Part shown: piece by piece, positions 12,356 through 42,987 of the stretch
Layout of the letters: each line of letters begins with the position of its first letter
Numbering within the stretch: the stretch's first letter is position 1
Assembly (NCBI GenBank): GCA_944324435.1
Contig: CALUWH010000010.1
Location: 1 to 64,000 of the forward strand
DNA length: 64,000 nucleotides
DNA from: Candidatus Gastranaerophilales bacterium
Lineage (GTDB): Bacteria > Cyanobacteriota > Vampirovibrionia > Gastranaerophilales > Gastranaerophilaceae
Direction of reading: 5' to 3'
Position numbers and translations under genes: made by a program
Notes under the pieces: model-generated
Database searches by the model: none
What the model saw: only the letters and a program-made list of their open reading frames with translations
What the model was told of the DNA's origin: nothing

Positions 12356-12803
12356 CTTTTGATAATCAAACTTTAAATACAGCCTTATAAAAAACTGTAA
12401 AATATGGTAAATCTGTGATTTACCACATCAAATCAGCTTTTTAAATTTTTTGCGAGCGTGCGGCGAAGCCGCGATAGCGAGCACAAGAGTGCAGGCTTGC
12501 CTGCAACAGCCATTTAATCCCACGCCCTAAGGGCGTAGAAAACATTTGCGGATTTTCTCTTTCTTTTCGTTCTTTTCTTTCTCTTTTTATTCGCAAGAAA
12601 AGAGAAAGAAAAGAACATGTTAAGAGGTTAAATTAAATTATATGCCTCTTTCTTGTGACGGCAAGACTATAGGATGTGGTAAATCACAGATTTACCGCAA
12701 CAAATCAGTTTCGGTAATCTTTGATTACCAAAACCTACGAACTGATTGTTTACGTTTTTAGGGGGACAATTCAGAAAGCCCAACCTACTAATCTGCCTGT
12801 TAA
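12356..12803. other. Intergenic stretch made of repeat elements
   Basis: No gene. It contains two copies of a GGTAAATC/GATTTACC hairpin (12403-12429 and 12672-12701), a 185-bp repeat block (12440-12624) and unique AT-rich sequence. The tail has AGAAAGCCCAACCTAC, a half of the palindrome found complete at 13696. Confidence 0.8.
12403..12701 (+). repeat. Composite hairpin repeat, left copy (H-block-H)
   Basis: H elements (hairpin GGTAAATC...GATTTACC) at 12403-12429 and 12672-12701 bracket a 185-bp block (12440-12624). The block is a chain of palindromes: GCGGCGAAGCCGC, GCAGGCTTGCCTGC, CGCCCTAAGGGCG and a long purine/pyrimidine stem around AAGAAAAGAGAAAGAAAAG. It matches 13419-13603 with only a handful of differences. 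Confidence 0.9.
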
Positions 12804-13079
12804 TTAATCCAGCGTATTCATAAAATTTTTAGGCAATTCTTTATCAAGAAGTGCTCCAAACTCCTCATAGGTCAAGCCCAAGGCTTTGATAATCTTAAAC
12901 AGACTGGTAACATAGCTTTTATTCTTACCTTTTTCTACCATATATAGTGTTGTTTTGGAAATATCATTCTCATAACAAAATATTGTAAACTTAAATTTAC
13001 GGCGAATGCGTTCCCGATGAATAACTTTACCAATAGCTTTGAGCATCATTGCATTATTATCTTGCATAAGATTAATCAT
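12804..13079 (-). CDS. XRE-type helix-turn-helix regulator
   Basis: A 91-residue protein, most of which is one HTH_XRE domain: the leading helix AIGKVIHRERIRRK, then the recognition region DISKTTLYMVEKGKNK and the closing SLFKIIKALGLTYEEF. Such small regulators often control a divergent neighbour. Here a 68-aa gene starts 56 bases away on the other strand. The pair is the only coding content between two long direct repeats. Partner and target are not known. Confidence 0.85.
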   Translation of the reverse strand: MINLMQDNNAMMLKAIGKVIHRERIRRKFKFTIFCYENDISKTTLYMVEKGKNKSYVTSLFKIIKALGLTYEEFGALLDKELPKNFMNTLD

Positions 13080-13342: not shown

Positions 13343-13876
13343 GTAGGATGTGGTAAATCTGCGATTTACCGCATAAAATAAGCTTCGGTAATCAAAGATT
13401 AAGGAAAACTACGAACTTTTTAATTTTTTTGCGAGCGTGCGGCGAAGCCGCGATAGCGAGCACAAGAGTGCAGGCTTGCCTGCTACAGCCATTTAATCCC
13501 ACGCCCTAAGGGCGTAGAAAACATTTGCGGATTTTCTCTTTCTTTTCGTTCTTTTCTTTCTCATTTTATTCGCAAGAAAAGAGAAAGAAAAGGACATGTT
13601 AAGACTGTAGGATGTGGTAGATTTGTGATTTACCGCATCCTACTAAAATGTCATGCTGAACTTGTTTCAGCATATTACCAACCTGAAGAGTTATTGTTGG
13701 GCTGAAAGCCCAACCGACTTTGTCAGGCAATGCCTGACCTACAGACTCGCAAATATTATTGGCTCATTCCGTTAAGGCTCAAAATATCTAAAATCTATCA
13801 ACTACTCACGCCTCACACTTCACCAAGATAGCACCCTCCTACCCTCCCTCATAAGGGAGAAATATCAAACCAATAA
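13343..13876. other. Intergenic stretch made of repeat elements
   Basis: No gene. It holds the right H-block-H repeat (13344-13642), then a row of unrelated palindromes: ATGCTGAAC...CAGCAT (13653-13673), GTTGGGCTGAAAGCCCAAC (13696-13714) and GTCAGGCAATGCCTGAC (13722-13738, also at 51). Near 13830 CCCTCC...GGGAG is a further short dispersed-type repeat. Together these look like nested intergenic palindromic elements. Confidence 0.8.
13344..13642 (+). repeat. Composite hairpin repeat, right copy (H-block-H)
   Basis: Direct repeat of the left copy: H elements at 13344-13375 and 13608-13642 flank the 185-bp block at 13419-13603 (constant offset of 979 from 12440-12624). An insert at 13383-13418 resembles 12709-12745. 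Observed block differences include CAACAGCC/CTACAGCC and AAGAACATG/AAGGACATG. Confidence 0.9.
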
Positions 13877-14737
13877 CTACTCTAAAATATCAAAAAAGTT
13901 ATAAAACTGATACGGATACTTAAGGGTATATTTCTCCAAAAACGCAACATACGCGCTTTCCAGCTCTTCCAGAATTTCTGATTTTTTCTCCGCTTCGGCC
14001 GTAAACTTTTCCGCGTGGATTACGTACTTCTTGCCCTCTTTTGCGCAGACAATAAAATATATCGGAGCGTTCATCACAAGCGCAAATTTAAGCGTGCCCA
14101 TAGGAAGGGTTATTGTTTTACCAAGAAACGGACGCTTGTAAACCTTATTTGTATTCTGGGCAGACACCCTGTCGCCTGCCATAAACACGATTTCGCCTGC
14201 CTTTAGCCTTTCTGAGATTACAATTGAAGTTTCCGCATCAATATCTTCAACAGGGAATACATCGAGATTTACCTTTGCTTCTGACATTTTTAGAAACTTA
14301 TTAAACACCTCGCACGCGTTTGATTGCAGGAAAACATTTGCACGCTTAGCTTTGGGGTGATTGAGCAGAGTTCTTAAAATCTCTATGTTACCGATATGTG
14401 TTGTGATAAAAAATGTTCCGTTAAAAATTTCAGGCTCTTTTAGAAGAAATTTTTTCATATCCAGATTTCCGGTGTAGGATATAAACTTGTCTACAAGAGC
14501 GTTTCCGTAATTCAGAAATTGTTTAAATGAGCTTATTAAAACTGGTTTTTTCAAGATTTTGTAAAATTTTTCCGAAGCTTTTCTGCGCTCTTTTGCTGTA
14601 ATAAATACAGAAAGAACAACAAAAAACGCAATAATCCTGAGCGGCCATTCTCCGAACCATTTGTACAAATACATGGTTATTATGAGGCGTTTCATCCCTG
14701 CGCCCTGTTCTTTTAGCTGGAACCATTGTTTAGGCAT
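13877..14737 (-). CDS. LpxL/HtrB-like acyltransferase of the polyene-type operon
   Basis: A 286-residue lysophospholipid/lipid-A type acyltransferase. The catalytic-type motif is THIGNIE (HxxxxD/E-like, near residue 130), followed by VFMAGDRVS and RPFLGKTITLPMGT, which match the HtrB/LpxL family. An N-terminal hydrophobic segment anchors it. In aryl polyene loci such an enzyme is thought to attach the polyene acyl chain to a lipid carrier. It is the last gene of the operon, overlapping the methyltransferase by 8 bases. Confidence 0.85.
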   Translation of the reverse strand: MPKQWFQLKEQGAGMKRLIITMYLYKWFGEWPLRIIAFFVVLSVFITAKERRKASEKFYKILKKPVLISSFKQFLNYGNALVDKFISYTGNLDMKKFLLKEPEIFNGTFFITTHIGNIEILRTLLNHPKAKRANVFLQSNACEVFNKFLKMSEAKVNLDVFPVEDIDAETSIVISERLKAGEIVFMAGDRVSAQNTNKVYKRPFLGKTITLPMGTLKFALVMNAPIYFIVCAKEGKKYVIHAEKFTAEAEKKSEILEELESAYVAFLEKYTLKYPYQFYNFFDILE

Positions 14738-15773
14738 TTTTCACACACTCCAAAAGCGTGTAATCATGCGTGCCGACGTCTTCATACACTTTATTAATTC
14801 TAAATCCGGACAGATTGATAATCTTTTCCATATCTTTTTGAGAATACATCTTGCTGCAGCCGTTTGCCATACAGGTAAAATACAATGACGTATGTACGAG
14901 CGAGTATTTCGCACCCTCAAATTTTTGGCGGTCAATAAACGGCTCAAGGATATAAACTTTTATGCTGTCATCGCCGGAGGCGTGGATTTTTTCAAGAATC
15001 TTTCTGATTTGTTCTTTAGAAAAACAGTCCAGGAACTGGCTCATAAAAACTGCGCCCGACATTTGAGGAAGCTCGTCTTTTAAAACATCGGCCTTAAAAA
15101 ATTTGCATTTTTTAAGTTCTTCGTCGTTCTTGATATAGTCAATATTTGCAGGAAGGTCAATCATTGTTATATCAAGATTAGGGTTATTTTTAAGACATAC
15201 TTTCTCAAAAATTCCTGTGTTTCCGCCGATATCAAAAACTTTGTTACTCTTCGAAACAATTTCGCAGATTAAATCAAAGCAGGTGTTTGAATAATAATGG
15301 TCAAATTCATACCAGCTTTTCTTCATTTTGTCGGGAAGCTTGGAGATATAAGGATAAATTGTTTCCGCATCCGAAAAAATTTGTCTCAATCCTTTGGGCT
15401 CCGCCTCTGTGAAGGATTGTGTCAGTAAAGAAGCTCCCGAATAGCACACATCTTTTACGAAATTAAAGTTCGCAACAGTCATCTCATCGTAGAGAAATGT
15501 TTTTCCAAGCGGGGTGATTGAATATACATCCTCCTGATTTTTAACTATTCCGATAACTTCCGCCGTCTCAAGAAGGGTTTTTGCTGTGTATTCAGAGAGT
15601 TTAAATTTTTCAATCAAATCTTGGGCGCTTGAAGGCGCTGTGTCAATCTCTTTTAGGATTCCTAAATCAAGCATTGCGCCGATTGCGTGAAAGCTCAAAG
15701 GCGCAAACGCAATTTTTTGTGCGTCCGTAAGAGCCTGAATAAGTTCTTGTTTATGTGCTTTCCTTTTTTCCAT
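14730..15773 (-). CDS. SAM-dependent O-methyltransferase-like protein
   Basis: The 347-residue protein has an N-terminal winged-helix dimerisation domain (about 15-90) and a C-terminal Rossmann methyltransferase domain: VFDIGGNTGIFEK is the SAM-binding glycine loop, IDLPANID the acidic strand end, and later FMSQFLDCFSKEQ resembles the active-site region of family-2 O-methyltransferases. A phenolic or polyketide-like acceptor is likely from family and context. It overlaps the exporter gene by 23 bases. Confidence 0.85.
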   Translation of the reverse strand: MEKRKAHKQELIQALTDAQKIAFAPLSFHAIGAMLDLGILKEIDTAPSSAQDLIEKFKLSEYTAKTLLETAEVIGIVKNQEDVYSITPLGKTFLYDEMTVANFNFVKDVCYSGASLLTQSFTEAEPKGLRQIFSDAETIYPYISKLPDKMKKSWYEFDHYYSNTCFDLICEIVSKSNKVFDIGGNTGIFEKVCLKNNPNLDITMIDLPANIDYIKNDEELKKCKFFKADVLKDELPQMSGAVFMSQFLDCFSKEQIRKILEKIHASGDDSIKVYILEPFIDRQKFEGAKYSLVHTSLYFTCMANGCSKMYSQKDMEKIINLSGFRINKVYEDVGTHDYTLLECVKNA

Positions 15774-17787
15774 GATTTGATTTTATCATAAAAAGGCTTA
15801 CAAGATATGAGGTGAAAATTCCTAAGAAAAGAGTTATCCCAAGAGAGCTTATGAGTTTAAAACTTGTAAAAGAAAGCAGCAAAAATGATATTGCAGTAGA
15901 GGCGCAAGAGAGAAATACCGCGTCTTTTGAGTTTTCACCGCTGTTTAATCTGAATATTGAATAATCAAGGCTGAATCCGATGATTAAAAACAGGGCAAGG
16001 ATATGGAAAAGATTTATTTCTACTCCCATAAGGCTCAAAAGTGTTACGGCAAACGCCGCCCCGAGAAGCGGAGAAAGGGTTATTTTGAATGCGTTTTTTA
16101 TTCCGTATAAAAAGCTCAAAAATCCAAAAAGAATCAAAAACGCACATGGTATCAGAACAAAGCACTTATGCCTCAAATTCCGAAGAATTTGAGAGATGCT
16201 GTCAGCAATGTTTATTGAATCTTTTGTTTTTTCAAACACAAGGGTGCACGAGGTGTTGTTATCAAGCATAAACTCGGATTTGAGCGGAAAATTTTCCGGG
16301 GGGTAAATCTCCGGGGGGTAAATTTGAGGGGGGTAAATTTGAGGGGGGTAAATTTCAAGTTTCCTATTTTTGAGTTTCTGAATGTTTTCTTTGTTCAAAA
16401 ATGTTGCATAATTATCCAAATCCGCATCATAGAGAGATTTTACGAGTTCTATATTCTCCTTTTGTCTTGAACTTGAGGAGACAAAACGGCTCAAATTTAT
16501 TGCGTTATCAAGGTTAAGTTCTTCTTCTTTTTGAAGGATTTCATCAATATTTTTGCCTGTTGTTATAATAAATTCAGGACTTTTGGGCGTAAATACTTTC
16601 TGGTATAAGCTTTCTGCATACGCCAAATCCTTAGGAGGATTGTACAGGTTTTTTAAGTTGTCGTTAAATTGGATTTTGAATCCGCCGATTAGTATTACAA
16701 CAAGGATTAGCGCAAAAAAGTACGGCTTAATCTTTGGGTAAACAAGTTTTTTAAATCCGCCAGAGCTAACTTCGATTTTAAACATCGGAAGAATTATAAG
16801 TACGAAAAGATAAACCCCGATAAGCCCGAAAGATGTGAACACGGCAATTTGTCTCAAAACTTCAATATCCGAAAAAGCGAGAATTCCAAACGCGGTAACA
16901 GTTGTAAGCATAGAGGATGTGAGGCTTTTTTTGAATCCCTTTTCTTTGCCTGTAAGATAATAATGCAGCGAGTAATCAAGGCTCACGCCGATTAGGGAAG
17001 TTGAAAAGACAAATGTAAGTATATGGATTTTATCAAACACAAATGTTGAAACAGAATATCCCATAAGGATTCCGAACACTATGCTCAAAATTATCGGGAA
17101 AAGAATTTTTATTGATTTGAAATAGAATCTTGCAAGCAGGATTATTGCAAGAGTTGAGATAAAGCAGATTATATTAATTTCCGTATTTGATTTTGTACTT
17201 GTGACATAAGAATGCACCGGCGTTCCTGTAAGATAAACCCCGGGCTTTTGTTTTTCGATAATCTTAGATGGGTTATCAGTCTCAACATGGATTACGGAAT
17301 AAAATTTGCCGTTATAGTTAATCACGTTTTCTTCCTGAAACTTTTGATTTTGCATCAAAAAATCGTTCGCAAAAAGATACGGGTCTTTATCAGGAGGTGA
17401 AACATAGAATCCAAGCGGATTATATAGCTTTTCCAAACCCTTCTGTTCAAGCGTTTTGTAATCTTTTGCCTTGATTAGGTTCCTATCTTCTTCCGTCAAA
17501 AAATTTGCAGGATAATTTCTGTAAACATCCAGAACCTCATCAGCGTAAGATTGGAGCTTGAACTCCTCAAACTCGGATTTCATCTCTTCCAGAGTATCAA
17601 AATCGTCGGCTTCAAGGATTATATTAAGCTTTTTTGATGACATGCCGGCAATTTTTACGATATTTTTTTCAGCCTGAGAATTCGGAGTAATAAAAGCTTT
17701 CAGAAGTTCCGTCTCAACAGGCTTTGCTTGCAAAAACGCCGCGGCAAAGAAAATTAATGATAGAATTATAAAACCAATCCGTTTCAT
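15751..17787 (-). CDS. MMPL/RND-family lipid exporter with an internal peptide repeat
   Basis: A 678-residue RND-type exporter with an N-terminal signal/TM segment, a large periplasmic loop, a five- to six-helix bundle (about 205-370), a second loop and a second bundle (about 540-670). Both bundles carry the family DYS signature (SLDYSLHYY and SLDYSIFRL). Like MMPL proteins in aryl polyene and flexirubin loci it probably moves the lipid product outward, with the neighbouring LolA. Oddly the second loop holds four IYPP(Q/E)-type repeats encoded by a 15-bp DNA repeat. It overlaps LolA by 4 bases. Confidence 0.9.
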   Translation of the reverse strand: MKRIGFIILSLIFFAAAFLQAKPVETELLKAFITPNSQAEKNIVKIAGMSSKKLNIILEADDFDTLEEMKSEFEEFKLQSYADEVLDVYRNYPANFLTEEDRNLIKAKDYKTLEQKGLEKLYNPLGFYVSPPDKDPYLFANDFLMQNQKFQEENVINYNGKFYSVIHVETDNPSKIIEKQKPGVYLTGTPVHSYVTSTKSNTEINIICFISTLAIILLARFYFKSIKILFPIILSIVFGILMGYSVSTFVFDKIHILTFVFSTSLIGVSLDYSLHYYLTGKEKGFKKSLTSSMLTTVTAFGILAFSDIEVLRQIAVFTSFGLIGVYLFVLIILPMFKIEVSSGGFKKLVYPKIKPYFFALILVVILIGGFKIQFNDNLKNLYNPPKDLAYAESLYQKVFTPKSPEFIITTGKNIDEILQKEEELNLDNAINLSRFVSSSSRQKENIELVKSLYDADLDNYATFLNKENIQKLKNRKLEIYPPQIYPPQIYPPEIYPPENFPLKSEFMLDNNTSCTLVFEKTKDSINIADSISQILRNLRHKCFVLIPCAFLILFGFLSFLYGIKNAFKITLSPLLGAAFAVTLLSLMGVEINLFHILALFLIIGFSLDYSIFRLNSGENSKDAVFLSCASTAISFLLLSFTSFKLISSLGITLFLGIFTSYLVSLFMIKSNHGKKEST
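16292..16351. repeat. In-frame 15-bp tandem repeat with G6 tracts
   Basis: Four consecutive 15-bp units, two reading ...CCGGGGGGTAA and two ATTTGAGGGGGGTAA on the + strand, lie inside the MMPL exporter gene. On the minus strand they encode IYPPQ/IYPPE repeats (around residues 480-500). Unit-number change would keep frame; slippage in any of the G6 runs would not. Confidence 0.9.
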
Positions 17788-18296
17788 TTTGTGAACCTTA
17801 TTGATGTTTTTGTTAAATCCTTAGTTATGATAACAATCCTTGAAATATCGCTCTTTCCCTCAATTTCGATTGATTTGAGATAATTTGCTACCTTGGAATC
17901 TTTTTGAGGAGCAAGACCCAGAATCCAGATTCCATTGTTTTTCTCAAAATAGAATCTAAAATCTTTCTCCAGCTTAGAGTATGCACCGGATGAGATAGCA
18001 GTAATAACACTGTTTATCTGGCGGTATTCTTTTGATGTGTAAGAAGTTGTGCTTGTTATCGGATACGTTGTGTAAAATGTTACGCCCTTGTTTTTTTCAA
18101 AGACGAAATCTCCGGAAGACTTCAACGTAACGCCTGATTGAGGAAGATACTTTTCCTGAGAAAACTTACACCTGACACTCTCAAGCGCAGGAAGCTCCTT
18201 TGTAATCTCTTCAAGTTTCTTAGGATGCTCAAATACATCCGCAAAAACCGGAGATATTATCAATAGAAAAATAATTGTTAATAAAATTTTTTTCAA
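17784..18296 (-). CDS. LolA-like outer-membrane lipoprotein carrier
   Basis: The protein has a signal peptide (hydrophobic run LLTIIFLLIISPVFAD) and a LolA-type half-barrel: VRCKFSQEKYLPQSGVTLKSSGDFVF is the typical start. I place the start at the TTG at 18296, which has AAAAGG 8 bases upstream and gives a clean signal peptide. The longer frame also starts with TTG and runs into the C/T-rich intergenic repeat. At 170 residues it is slightly short for LolA. Its place just before the MMPL exporter matches aryl polyene loci, where this LolA copy is thought to serve product export rather than general lipoprotein sorting. Confidence 0.85.
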   Translation of the reverse strand: MKKILLTIIFLLIISPVFADVFEHPKKLEEITKELPALESVRCKFSQEKYLPQSGVTLKSSGDFVFEKNKGVTFYTTYPITSTTSYTSKEYRQINSVITAISSGAYSKLEKDFRFYFEKNNGIWILGLAPQKDSKVANYLKSIEIEGKSDISRIVIITKDLTKTSIRFTK

Positions 18297-18412
18297 AACA
18301 AACAACCTTTTAATCCTAAAACTTCTTCTCAACTGCTAAACTTTTCTCCTTCTTCTCCCACCCAACCCCTCTCCCTAACCCTCTCCCGCAAGGGGCGAGG
18401 GGATTCCTAAAT
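18297..18412. repeat. Short intergenic repeat relics
   Basis: Between the thioesterase and lolA-like genes is a C/T-rich piece (ACTTCTTCTCAACTGC, related to 1-400) and a CCCTCTCCC...GGGGCGAGGG hairpin. It is the only gap larger than a few bases inside an otherwise overlapping operon and may terminate or attenuate transcription. Confidence 0.6.
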
Positions 18413-18826
18413 TTATTTTTCCTTTTTTAAACTCTCTTTCAGCCTCTTTGGAGCTTCAAACATACTCTCGCCTGTTTCAATATTTACACCTATCTGCATC
18501 GTATTCCCGACAAAAATCTTTTCCCCTCCGGAAAAAATTTCGTATTTAAAAATTATTGCAGGTTCAAGTTCTTTTAAACTGCATCTGACCGTAATCTCTT
18601 CATCAAATTTTGCGGATTTAATAAACTTAAAATCCATCTTCGCAATAGGATACATAATCCCATCTTCGCGCATATCATCATAAGTGTATTTTATCTTCCT
18701 GAAAAAATCACACCTTGCAATCTCCATATACTTAACATAGTTTCCGTGCCAGACCACGTTCATCGGGTCAAGGTCAAAAAAAGGCACCCTGAATTTTGTT
18801 TCTGATGTAATGTTTTTATTTCTCAT
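18413..18826 (-). CDS. Hotdog-fold acyl-CoA/ACP thioesterase
   Basis: A 137-residue 4-hydroxybenzoyl-CoA-thioesterase-like protein. The signature FFDLDPMNVVWHGNYVKYMEIAR contains the catalytic-type Asp and the HGNYV loop. In aryl polyene loci a thioesterase of this class is part of the core and edits or releases acyl chains from the ACP. Its ATGA start overlaps the upstream ligase stop, with GAGGAGG as ribosome-binding site. Confidence 0.88.
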   Translation of the reverse strand: MRNKNITSETKFRVPFFDLDPMNVVWHGNYVKYMEIARCDFFRKIKYTYDDMREDGIMYPIAKMDFKFIKSAKFDEEITVRCSLKELEPAIIFKYEIFSGGEKIFVGNTMQIGVNIETGESMFEAPKRLKESLKKEK

Positions 18827-20196
18827 AAATCAGCCTCCTCAAACCAATTCTTTAGAGGAAGAATGCCGCTTGAATACATTTTATCTTCTTTAAAATACTT
18901 AAACTCCACTCCGCTTGCTGTTTTAACAAGCTCCAAATTCACGATTTCATCAGGATTAATGATATTAGCAAACTTAATCCTGCGCTGCTGCCCTTTCTTG
19001 CAATTGAGTCCGAAAGCTGCCTGGATAAAATAATCCGCATAGTATAACTCCACAACGCCTGGAAGAATCGGCATTGAATCAAAATGCCCTTTGAAAAAAT
19101 TGCTGCCTGATAAAAAGCACAGACTGAATAACGCCCTGTCTTTTGCAAATTCCCTTGATATAATAAGCGGAAACGAAAGGTTAGTGTTAAAAATGTCATC
19201 AATAGCCATTTTGTCAATCTTTCCGTTCAGTGTTTTGGGAATTTCATCAATAAATTTCCACCTTTGAGGTATAACCTCAAATTGTTTTAATAATAATGAT
19301 TTAAGTTCTTTAATAAACGTCAGCTTCCCCTTTTTTAGGATAAAATCCATACCGTCCTCATTTAATGCTGCAAGTGCAGCTATCTTGCCATTATTTTCAA
19401 AGCAAATACAGTCCTTAACAAAATGATGTTTTTTTATTTCATCCTCCATGCATAAAGAATCGATTCTTTTTTCCTGAATCTTTAGTATTCTGCCATTTCG
19501 GGCAAGAAAGCGAATATATTCTCCTGTCTGTTCTATCCTGTCACCAAGTACCTCAAACTCATTATCGGAGTATTCTGTTGCTATTTTTGTATAATCATCT
19601 TCGCATTCCAGAATCTGAACACCGCGCAAAAGCTTATGAGCATCATTTTCGTTCTCCCTCCAGCCTATAATTCCTGTTTCGGAACTTCCGTACATGTCAA
19701 TGACTCTTTTTGATATGCTTCTTGCGTATTTAAAAGTTTTATCTTCAAGCTTTGCTCCCGCACTTATTATAACCTCAGGACAAACTTCCGGTTTATAATC
19801 ATACTTGCACATCATATCCAAAAAAGACGGAGTGGTTACAAGAAGTGCATTTTTAACATTCAAGTCTTCAGGATAATTGACTCTTTCCGTATTGATACAA
19901 TAACCGAAAAGAGCCGGCAGCATATAATGCACAGTAAATCCATACCTGTGGTTTAATGTAGTTGTAGATATAAATTCAAGACCTTTTTGCAGTTTTACGT
20001 CTTCATAAAAATCTTTGCATTCTTTGATTACATTTATAACTTTTCTGTGTATGCTCCGGCTCTCCGCCGTTGTTCCGCCGGAAAAAAATGATACTAACTC
20101 TGATTTTTCTTTCATAAAATTAAGAATAAATTTCAAATTTTCATTCTCACAATTACATTTCAAAATCAGATTTTTATTATAAAAATCAATCGCCAT
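18823..20196 (-). CDS. Acyl-AMP ligase fused to a FabZ-like hotdog dehydratase
   Basis: A two-domain protein of 457 residues. Residues 1 to about 325 are an adenylate-forming ligase: FFSGGTT (about 37-43) is the phosphate loop, MYGSSETG the A5 motif, GRILKIQEKRID the hinge, and LNGKID carries the adenylation lysine. The N-terminal subdomain is short compared with ordinary acyl-CoA ligases. Residues from about 335 are a hotdog dehydratase with FFKGHFDSMPILPGVVE, holding the catalytic-type His. In aryl polyene clusters these activities are usually adjacent genes or a similar fusion, activating the starter acid and dehydrating the chain. It overlaps its neighbours by 4-11 bases. Confidence 0.88.
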   Translation of the reverse strand: MAIDFYNKNLILKCNCENENLKFILNFMKEKSELVSFFSGGTTAESRSIHRKVINVIKECKDFYEDVKLQKGLEFISTTTLNHRYGFTVHYMLPALFGYCINTERVNYPEDLNVKNALLVTTPSFLDMMCKYDYKPEVCPEVIISAGAKLEDKTFKYARSISKRVIDMYGSSETGIIGWRENENDAHKLLRGVQILECEDDYTKIATEYSDNEFEVLGDRIEQTGEYIRFLARNGRILKIQEKRIDSLCMEDEIKKHHFVKDCICFENNGKIAALAALNEDGMDFILKKGKLTFIKELKSLLLKQFEVIPQRWKFIDEIPKTLNGKIDKMAIDDIFNTNLSFPLIISREFAKDRALFSLCFLSGSNFFKGHFDSMPILPGVVELYYADYFIQAAFGLNCKKGQQRRIKFANIINPDEIVNLELVKTASGVEFKYFKEDKMYSSGILPLKNWFEEADL

Positions 20197-20614
20197 ACTT
20201 CCTCTTAAAAATAAGTCTTATAATATATTCTATAACAAAAAAGCTGCCAACCAGTAAATAAGATATTAATCCGTTATAAACCGCCCAGATTTTGTACGGC
20301 AAAAATATCGTTACTGAGGCCGCAATAAAATTCAAAAACATAAATCCCGACCAGATGTATGTAAGTTTTCGTGTGTAATCCATAACCCAAGGTTTAAGCT
20401 TCTCTCCCTCAGCGGCCATTGCAAATTTTTGTATAATTGTATGCTCGCGGAAAATTGAGGAAAAGAATACAATAAAAAATCCAAAGTTAACGACTGCAGG
20501 ATAAAATTTAAGCAGAAAAAAATCCGTAAAACGAAATAATACGATTACACAAAGCATTGTAATAATCGGCATCCCAGCTTTAAGAAGTTTTAAAAATCTA
20601 TTCAACAAGCCCAT
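20186..20614 (-). CDS. Integral membrane protein of the polyene-type operon
   Basis: A 142-residue protein with four to five membrane helices and little else. It resembles the small membrane protein (COG4648 type) that sits beside the ACP and AMP-ligase genes in aryl polyene loci; its biochemical role is not known. I chose the start MGLLNRF at 20614, which overlaps the ACP gene end by 17 bases; a start at 20635 would add seven residues. Confidence 0.75.
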   Translation of the reverse strand: MGLLNRFLKLLKAGMPIITMLCVIVLFRFTDFFLLKFYPAVVNFGFFIVFFSSIFREHTIIQKFAMAAEGEKLKPWVMDYTRKLTYIWSGFMFLNFIAASVTIFLPYKIWAVYNGLISYLLVGSFFVIEYIIRLIFKRKYGD

Positions 20615-20849
20615 AGACGGCTTCCACAACATCATTAATTGTTCTGATTTTCTTGAACTCCTCAGGCGGAAGCTTTTTGTCAGTAAATTTTTGCATTCTA
20701 ACAGCTATATCTACTGCGTCGATGCTGTCAAGTTCCAAATCCTCAAAAAGATTCGCATCCGAAGTAACAGCCTCCTCGTCGATTTCCATTTCTTCAACGA
20801 GAATTTTTTTTACTTCTTCAAAAATTTCTTCTTTTGAATACTTACTCAT
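20598..20849 (-). CDS. Acyl carrier protein (operon ACP 1)
   Basis: An 83-residue carrier protein with the phosphopantetheine site LELDSIDAVDIA. The ATG at 20849 overlaps the upstream ACP gene by 8 bases (ATGAGTAA), so the two are translationally coupled. The sequence differs from housekeeping AcpP at 41436 (DSLDTVE), and a Ser-Ile-Asp core is typical of specialised ACPs in aryl polyene and related loci. Confidence 0.92.
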   Translation of the reverse strand: MSKYSKEEIFEEVKKILVEEMEIDEEAVTSDANLFEDLELDSIDAVDIAVRMQKFTDKKLPPEEFKKIRTINDVVEAVYGLVE

Positions 20850-21099
20850 TAATTTTAGACTCCACAAATTCGCTGAGTGTATCTATTGAATAGAAAAATT
20901 TTTTATTTTCTTCCTTATTATTGCTTAGAGTAATATTATACTTCCTTTTTATTGCCATTCCAAGCTCCAGCGCGTCGATTGAATCCAGGCCTAAGCCTTC
21001 GCCAAACAACGGTTCTGAATCCGAAATATCACTAACAGCAACATCTTCCAGCTCCAATGTATTAATAATTAACTGTTTTAACTCTTCCTTTAAATCCAT
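20842..21099 (-). CDS. Acyl carrier protein (operon ACP 2)
   Basis: An 85-residue carrier protein with the phosphopantetheine site LGLDSIDALELG. It is the first gene of the nine-gene minus-strand operon. TATAAT lies nine bases before the ATG at 21099, so the transcript has almost no leader. The pairing of two divergent ACPs with a ligase/dehydratase is characteristic of aryl polyene-type type II systems, where each ACP handles a different acyl intermediate. Confidence 0.92.
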   Translation of the reverse strand: MDLKEELKQLIINTLELEDVAVSDISDSEPLFGEGLGLDSIDALELGMAIKRKYNITLSNNKEENKKFFYSIDTLSEFVESKINE

Positions 21100-21124
21100 A
21101 GTAATAATATTATAACACAAAAAA

Positions 21125-41391: not shown

Positions 41392-41435
41392 TTAGTAGAA
41401 TAGTGTATTACACAATAAATAAGAGGATAAAAAAC

Positions 41436-41666
41436 ATGAGTACATTAGAAAAAGTAAAAAAAGTTGTAGTTGACCAATTAAGCTGCGATGAAGCTTTAGT
41501 TACTCCGGAAGCAAGCTTCACTGCTGATTTAGGTGCAGACTCTTTAGACACAGTTGAATTGGTAATGGCTTTTGAAGAAGAATTCGGCTGCGAAATCCCT
41601 GATGAAGAAGCTGAAAAAATTCAAACAGTTCAAGATGCTGTTAACTACATCGACGCACACTCATAG
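41436..41666 (+). CDS. acpP: Acyl carrier protein
   Basis: The housekeeping ACP, 76 residues, acidic, with the phosphopantetheine site [18 protein letters not shown]. The start MSTLEKVKK at 41436 follows AAGAGGAT; the longer frame starts at an upstream codon without support. It sits before fabF, as in many bacteria. It is clearly distinct from the two specialised ACPs at 20598-21099. Confidence 0.97.
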
Positions 41667-41685
41667 TAAGATTTAAATTTATATT

Positions 41686-41720
41686 AGGAGGGTGAGGATA
41701 TCTATTTTCGCCCTCCTATT
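41686..41720 (+). terminator. Attenuator-like hairpin between acpP and fabF
   Basis: AGGAGGGTG (41686-41694) pairs with CGCCCTCCT (41709-41717), nine base pairs with one G-U, followed by ATTTATT. It should end some transcripts after acpP, lowering fabF relative to ACP. Confidence 0.65.
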
Positions 41721-41739
41721 TATTAAGGAAAAGGAAAAG

Positions 41740-42987
41740 ATGACAAAACGTAGAGTTGTAATAACAGGAATGGGAGCAGTTACTCCGTTTGGCGTGGGAG
41801 TAGATACTTTTTGGAACTCAATTATTGCCGGAAAAAGCGGTATATCTTTGACAGAAGCAATGGATACCACTAAGCACACCGTAAAAATTTCAGGTGAATG
41901 CAAAACGTTCGACCCGGAAAAATATATTGATCCTAAAGATGCGAAAAAAATGGATAGATTCACACAGTTTGCAGTTGTAGCAGCTGATGAAGCTATTAAA
42001 GATGCAAAATTGGAAGAGGTTGATATCGACCCGTACAGAATCGGCGTAATGGTAAGTTCTGCGGCCGGCGGTTTTAAAACTTTTGAAAAAAACCACAAAG
42101 CTATTTTGGAAAAGGGACCTACAAAATGCTCGCCATTCACCATTCCTATGATGATTGTTGATATGCCGTCGGGAAGAATTTCTATGAAATACGGCTATAA
42201 AGGTGTTAACAAAGCAGTTGTATCAGCTTGCGCAACAGGTTCTCATTCGATTGGCGACGCATTCAGAACAATTCAGTACGGTGATGCTGACATCATGATT
42301 GCAGGTGGTTGTGAAGCTACAATTTGTGACGTTGGTATCGGTGCTTTCTCTGCAGCAAGAACACTTTCCAAAAGAAACGATGAACCGGAAAAAGCATCAA
42401 GACCTTATGATAAAGACAGAGACGGATTTATTATGTCAGAAGGTGCCGGAGTTCTTGTTCTTGAAGAATATGAGATGGCTAAAAAACGAGGTGCTCATAT
42501 TTATGCAGAAATCGTAGGATATGGACAATCTGCTGATGCTTATGATATGGTTGCACCTTGCCCGGAAGGAAACGGCGCAACGAAGGCTATGGAACTTGCT
42601 TTGAGTGATGCCGGCTTGAAACCGCAAGATGTTCAATACATTAACACTCACGGAACAAGCACAGGGCTCGGTGATATCGCGGAATCACAGGCTGTTGCAA
42701 GAGTTTTCGGCGATTTAACAACAAACAAGAACTTGTATGTATCTTCAACAAAATCTATGCACGGACACATGTTAGGTGCTACAGGTGCTGTTGAAGGAAT
42801 TGCTTGTATTAAAACAATCAATGAAAACATTGTTCCGCCTACAATCAATCTTGATAATCAGGATGAGCGTGTTGCAAACTTGAATTATGTTCCGCATAAA
42901 GCTCAGAAGGCAGAAGTTCATGCAGCTCTGTCAAACTCATTCGGTTTTGGCGGTCATAATGCTTCATTGATATTTAAAGAAATATAG
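41740..42987 (+). CDS. fabF: 3-oxoacyl-ACP synthase II (FabF)
   Basis: The elongation ketosynthase of type II fatty acid synthesis, 415 residues. The triad is visible: catalytic Cys in VVSACATGSHS, His in NTHGTSTGLGD and His in SMHGHMLGATG. Start at 41740 follows AAGGAAAAG. It is the only ketosynthase in the window and therefore the obvious candidate to supply chain-building for the specialised ACP operon, if that operon uses housekeeping enzymes. A terminator follows. Confidence 0.98.
   Translation: MTKRRVVITGMGAVTPFGVGVDTFWNSIIAGKSGISLTEAMDTTKHTVKISGECKTFDPEKYIDPKDAKKMDRFTQFAVVAADEAIKDAKLEEVDIDPYRIGVMVSSAAGGFKTFEKNHKAILEKGPTKCSPFTIPMMIVDMPSGRISMKYGYKGVNKAVVSACATGSHSIGDAFRTIQYGDADIMIAGGCEATICDVGIGAFSAARTLSKRNDEPEKASRPYDKDRDGFIMSEGAGVLVLEEYEMAKKRGAHIYAEIVGYGQSADAYDMVAPCPEGNGATKAMELALSDAGLKPQDVQYINTHGTSTGLGDIAESQAVARVFGDLTTNKNLYVSSTKSMHGHMLGATGAVEGIACIKTINENIVPPTINLDNQDERVANLNYVPHKAQKAEVHAALSNSFGFGGHNASLIFKEI

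Follow-up and report, generated by a model that had tools for sequence, protein, structure and literature searches.

The stretch of DNA analyzed here, which we call the window, comprises 64,000 nucleotides of contig C10 in a Candidatus Gastranaerophilales genome (1.95 Mb in 50 contigs, 98.9% complete). In the ORF listing, positions 13877-21120 of its minus strand hold nine ORFs that overlap their neighbors or are separated from them by short gaps, with an ATG for the first gene at 21099 (Table 1). An earlier note, made from the letters of the window, had described nine tightly coupled genes here and compared them to the accessory and export half of aryl polyene (APE) and flexirubin loci. The genes are real and their overlapping or nearly abutting arrangement is as described; the proposed kinship is right, and Pfam and NCBIfam models back most of the gene identities, with LolA and the membrane proteins placed mostly by position. 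The latter holds in particular for the putative ApeG and ApeL, which are assigned mainly by where they stand in the conserved order; ApeM is clearly a protein of the RND type.

That order runs colinear to apeE-F-G-H-I-K-L-M in the E. coli APE cluster; a FlxJ-like methyltransferase comes next and an LpxL-like acyltransferase last. The ligase and the hotdog dehydratase are joined in an ApeH-ApeI fusion (ApeHI), which is kept in relatives. Its best ligase model is that of 4-coumarate ligase (55.9 bits), whereas the ApeI-type hotdog model PF22818 matches weakly, as do residues 343-418 to the ApeI structure 6QSR_A (E = 0.008). By inspection, the LDSID motif is intact in both acyl carrier proteins (ACPs), and the GHF..PILPGVV motif of the ApeI domain is conserved. 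The methyltransferase scores 322.8 bits against the NCBIfam FlxJ family NF053543, short of the cut-off for that family (560), and the acyltransferase of the window lacks the glycosyltransferase half of ApeJ. As a separate observation on ApeH, its P-loop in the window's clade reads (T/S)GGTT or similar, with GGTT replacing the usual TSGST, and Gly replaces Asp in the A8 motif; these altered motifs track a clade of mostly split clusters.

Table 1. Positions of the operon genes, of the related genes on contigs C11 and C21 and of other features of the window
Feature	Position	Strand	Evidence or remarks
Solo end of IS3/IS150-like element	window 12752..12773	+	downstream of operon; exact match to L075 235-256, chance expectation 0.00
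Dispersed intergenic repeat, 189 bp	window 13416..13604	+	second copy 12437-12625
LpxL-type acyltransferase, acyltransferase half of ApeJ	window 13877..14737	-	PF03279 21.3 bits (cut-off 22.3)
SAM O-methyltransferase, FlxJ-like, putative functional counterpart of ApeB	window 14730..15773	-	PF00891 2.4e-12
RND/MMPL-type exporter, ApeM position	window 15751..17787	-	SecD_SecF_C 1.5e-5; HAE3 44.7 bits; HpnN 34.8 bits
LolA-like periplasmic carrier, ApeL position	window 17784..18332	-	PF03548 17.2 bits, under cut-off; conserved position
4HBT thioesterase, ApeK position	window 18413..18826	-	PF13279 5.6e-12
ApeH-ApeI fusion: acyl-AMP ligase (short N-terminus) and hotdog dehydratase	window 18823..20196	-	PF00501 4.3e-8
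Small membrane protein, ApeG position	window 20186..20635	-	conserved position, hydrophobicity, size; without confident family match
Acyl carrier protein, ApeF position	window 20598..20867	-	PF00550 7.4e-14; LDSIDA motif
Acyl carrier protein, ApeE position	window 20842..21120	-	PF00550 6.4e-8; LDSIDA attachment motif; E place in conserved order
FabF	window 41692-42987		ACP just upstream, pair spans 41403-42987; 20 kb from operon
PHP-domain phosphoesterase	C11, L004 14294-15136		directly after apeP-Q-R; 3',5'-nucleoside bisphosphatase/RNase RNM-like, 126 bits, below cut-off
Ketosynthase ApeR	C11, L004 15139-16362		best PDB match 7F27; NF006587 629 bits, above cut-off
Ketoreductase ApeQ	C11, L004 16359-17087		SDR between P and R; PF13561 3.5e-52; TIGR01831 347.6 bits, above cut-off
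ApeP-type dehydratase	C11, L004 17074-17526		PF22817 3e-14; 6QSR_B weak, E 0.00025
Ketosynthase ApeO	C21, L005 7502-8656	-	divergent from apeC
Chain-length factor ApeC	C21, L005 8636-9238		Ketoacyl-synt_2, PF13723 6e-24
Acyltransferase ApeD	C21, L005 9238-9981		PlsC-type; after apeC

Condensing and reducing enzymes on two other contigs

The operon had been described as lacking a ketosynthase (KS) and a ketoreductase (KR). This is correct for the locus itself, but not for the genome, in which KS, KR and ApeP-, ApeC- and ApeD-type genes are present on contigs C11 and C21. A search for the ketosynthase family over the whole genome recovered three KS, namely the FabF of the window and two others. 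The one on C11, where apeP, apeQ and apeR form one operon, reaches 487 bits with the Acinetobacter structure 7F27, as against at most 266 for FabF structures. For the C21 KS, the highest-ranking PDB entries are 6QSP_A (211 bits) and 7F28_B (170 bits), with FabF reaching at most 118, and for the adjacent chain-length factor (CLF) they are 6QSP_B and 7F28_A. Since 7F28 is ApeO-ApeC and 7F27 is ApeR (PMC8358021), these matches identify the C11 genes as apeP-Q-R and the C21 genes as apeO divergent from apeC-D. Their catalytic motifs are intact by inspection (TACSSG, HGTG and TGH in ApeO; TACTSG, HGTG and TGH in ApeR; NYSASK in ApeQ). Hence, the genome has the KS-CLF pair ApeO-ApeC, the second KS ApeR, the ketoreductase ApeQ, the paired dehydratases ApeI and ApeP, the two ACPs and the thioesterase that are features of APE systems, with the genes lying at three loci rather than in one cluster.

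Throughout the window's genus, a PHP-domain gene lies directly or closely downstream of apeR (L004, L076, L078, L080, L081, L083, L112 and L114), and travels with the apeP-Q-R module.

The cluster in relatives, its inheritance and its splitting

Most relatives, which are Candidatus Gastranaerophilales MAGs, have 15 genes at one locus of ~13 kb, organized as two divergent arms: apeO-P-Q-R on one side and apeC-D-E-F-G-HI-K-L-M-(B)-J' on the other, with the methyltransferase in the place of B. The records behind the loci named here are from Candidatus Gastranaerophilales or uncultured gut bacteria. The PF22817 domain of ApeP was detected in 34 of 117 genomes sampled over the phylum, every one of them in Gastranaerophilaceae. 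Among high-quality genomes (completeness of at least 90%, contamination of at most 5%), ApeHI, PF13723 (ApeC) and PF22817 are found in 24 of 53 each in the family sample and in 18 of 37 each in the genus sample, and the three module markers co-occur across all the high-quality genomes surveyed; single exceptions are confined to lower-quality genomes (G054, G082 and a weak match in G023). Further, G070 is the nearest relative for all ten cluster genes compared, which were drawn from the three modules, and pairwise distances for ApeHI and for each of R, O, Q, P, C and D are correlated (Mantel r 0.76-0.89, p = 0.001). The dN/dS ratios lie at 0.04-0.17 against G070, wherever dS is estimable, and at 0.04-0.24 against G086; all three modules are under purifying selection. 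Taken together, co-occurrence, phylogeny and selection therefore indicate that the three loci behave as a single inherited and maintained pathway.

To survey the splitting, we took the best 80 loci by similarity to the window, of which 70 could be classified; because the sample consists of the loci most similar to the window, its own genus is over-represented. The whole set lies in one cluster in 47 of these 70 loci and is split in 23, the window included, with the break falling between apeD and apeE in 15, between apeC and apeD in six and between apeO and apeP in two. The ApeHI tree calls for at least five changes between whole and split states, four of which are forced by starred branches, and for eight when the split types are kept apart. 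The cluster has been split at least four times in the family, at three different points and without gene loss. Contiguity in one cluster is typical, not biochemically necessary, for APE. The apeO and apeC genes are adjacent in every split genome whose apeO/apeC regions were read, including that of the window.

Several loci depart from the common layout in other ways. In L162 and L173 the apeO-P-Q-R/C-D block is inverted inside an otherwise complete cluster, and in L084 (G094) and L087 (G078) the module stops after apeK, without L, M and J' downstream. G112 has a whole cluster plus a second, split set (contigs C14, C53, C80 and C110), which could be due to contamination (4%) or to the presence of two pathways. 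A search in some relatives for an additional gene separating apeM from the methyltransferase was negative. The operons of the window genome (G000) and of G070 (L075) form a mosaic, with 97-98% nucleotide identity from apeM to J' and 76% in ApeHI, and dS within the cluster ranging from 0.05 to saturated. We rejected the idea that this mosaic divergence is a special property of the cluster, since comparable variation exists across the genome: nucleotide identities of 0.63-1.0 (median 0.91) were obtained for 68 reciprocal best pairs of genes, cluster genes among them. This genome-wide spread points to frequent recombination between the G000 and G070 species.

The solo IS3/IS150-like end lies beyond the operon on its downstream side, flanked by two copies of the 189-bp repeat, which has palindromic parts and about eight long copies in the genome. 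G070 has the same IS end, together with a transposase remnant, directly downstream of its operon, and a related repeat beyond apeD. These elements are suggestive only as a possible cause of the split. The alignment between the window and G070 covers the operon alone, their surroundings do not align, and no shared ancestral site was recovered from the flanking genes, which differ among genomes. A small Xre-type helix-turn-helix ORF (window 12804-13079) also lies between the repeat copies and adjoins the solo IS end.

A probable dispersed aryl-polyene pathway

In light of the above, we hold it to be highly probable that this genome has a complete APE pathway dispersed over three modules, one of them the operon in the window, and that the remaining enzymes are at two other sites because the cluster has been repeatedly broken in this lineage of gut cyanobacteria-relatives. 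The first module would comprise apeE-F-G-HI-K-L-M with the FlxJ-like methyltransferase and the ApeJ-type acyltransferase, the second (C11) apeP-Q-R with the PHP phosphoesterase gene, and the third (C21) apeO divergent from apeC-D. We infer every biochemical step and the product from work on E. coli, Xenorhabdus and Acinetobacter. The ligase half of ApeHI would load an aryl acid onto ApeE/F; ApeR would start the chain, which the ApeO-ApeC pair would extend with malonyl units; and ApeQ would reduce it, with the ApeI domain and ApeP together carrying out the dehydrations that yield a conjugated polyene. ApeK would release the acid, and the methyltransferase would modify it, with the aryl head as the most likely site. 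Attachment to a lipid anchor would then fall to ApeD and the LpxL-like enzyme, and ApeG, ApeL and ApeM are predicted to transport the product to the outer membrane.

The gene content and order of each arm (C-D-E-F-G-H-I-K-L-M and O-P-Q-R) are the same as in the ape clusters (apeA-R) of E. coli CFT073 and Xenorhabdus doucetiae (PMC8253772), with the genes of the former running as apeC-M and apeO-R (PMC8253772 Table 1). Shared with these are the ApeO-ApeC KS-CLF and the second KS ApeR, two ACPs, two dehydratases, the RND exporter and the putative LolA-like carrier. In contrast to them, the arms in this family diverge, ApeHI is a fusion, only an LpxL-like acyltransferase is left of ApeJ, a FlxJ-like methyltransferase near the end replaces ApeB, no counterparts of ApeA and ApeN were seen in the cluster, and the genes lie at three loci in the window genome. 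For the condensing enzymes of C21 and C11, the Acinetobacter baumannii ApeO-ApeC (7F28) and ApeR (7F27; PMC8358021) rank with the best matches to solved structures; unlike those ketosynthases, the ApeO-ApeC and ApeR genes are far apart here. The flexirubin (flx) clusters of Bacteroidota provide a further point of comparison, with the methyltransferase matching FlxJ (322.8 bits) and the KR matching FlxB (274 bits), both under the curated cut-offs.

The aromatic starter comes from a cellular supply outside the ape cluster of E. coli. Of the known sources of a hydroxybenzoate or cinnamate starter, UbiC (PF04345), the Rv2949c-like chorismate lyase (PF01947) and the aromatic ammonia-lyase (PF00221) were sought in the window genome and all proved absent, and this, along with the atypical motifs of the ligase (GGTT for the TSGST P-loop and Gly for the A8 Asp), leaves the head group and the exact product uncertain. 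Hence, one has to weigh the alternative that the three loci are real, but that the polyene starter is non-aromatic or unusual and the product not a strict aryl polyene. We consider this possible, if rather unlikely: the 4-coumarate ligase model and the FlxJ-like methyltransferase are both aryl-associated, and other chorismate lyases, other enzymes or gut-derived hydroxybenzoate could supply an aryl starter.

A second alternative, that the real genome has an unbroken cluster and the split is an artefact of assembly or binning, would draw on the genome being a draft of 50 contigs and on C11 ending about 0.64 kb upstream of apeP. However, the window and C21 modules lie inside their contigs, with unrelated flanks on both sides, and the same three breaks recur in independent genomes. 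Moreover, the split pieces share a contig in G105, with 94 kb between them on 476,760 bp, and likewise in G041, with about 76 kb between them. Contig breaks are thereby excluded as the cause there, and we judge such an artefact to be very improbable. Least credible of all is a minimal system without a dedicated KS/KR, which would make a simple lipidated acyl or aryl product or borrow FabF (41692-42987) and FabG: while no KS/KR lies inside the operon and the window has FabF, together with an ACP of its own, at a distance of 20 kb, dedicated homologs of ApeO, C, P, Q and R exist, strictly co-occur with the operon and in most relatives join it in a single cluster.

It was this minimal form, drawing on housekeeping FabF and FabG and perhaps constituting a distinct lipid-export system, that the earlier note had proposed, with a genome-wide search for ketosynthases as a check. 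Dedicated KS, KS-CLF, KR and second dehydratase genes are present in the genome, and the core enzymes co-occur with the operon throughout the family, have the same phylogeny and are encoded contiguously with it in most relatives. With a dedicated KS/KR set of matching phylogeny elsewhere in the genome, the proposal therefore fails its own test; what we have is a known type of pathway in dispersed form, not a minimal lipid-export system.

Going beyond the dispersed pathway as such, one might speculate that in Gastranaerophilales the dispersal of the APE cluster has been recurrent and adaptive, producing fixed modules (apeO-C, apeP-Q-R, apeE-F-G-HI and onward), with the ApeO-ApeC obligate heterodimer never broken, repeats and insertion sequences moving the modules, and starter loading and export thereby regulated separately from chain building; we regard this extension as doubtful.

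Finally, a text search of the literature found no paper on aryl polyenes in Gastranaerophilales, and their family-wide presence therefore appears to be under-reported. Mining tools that depend on clusters would read loci such as these as incomplete, so that the pathway could be overlooked or wrongly named in a large group of gut bacteria that are uncultured. At the same time, the repeated break-up of the cluster without gene loss offers a tractable case for understanding what keeps biosynthetic genes clustered.
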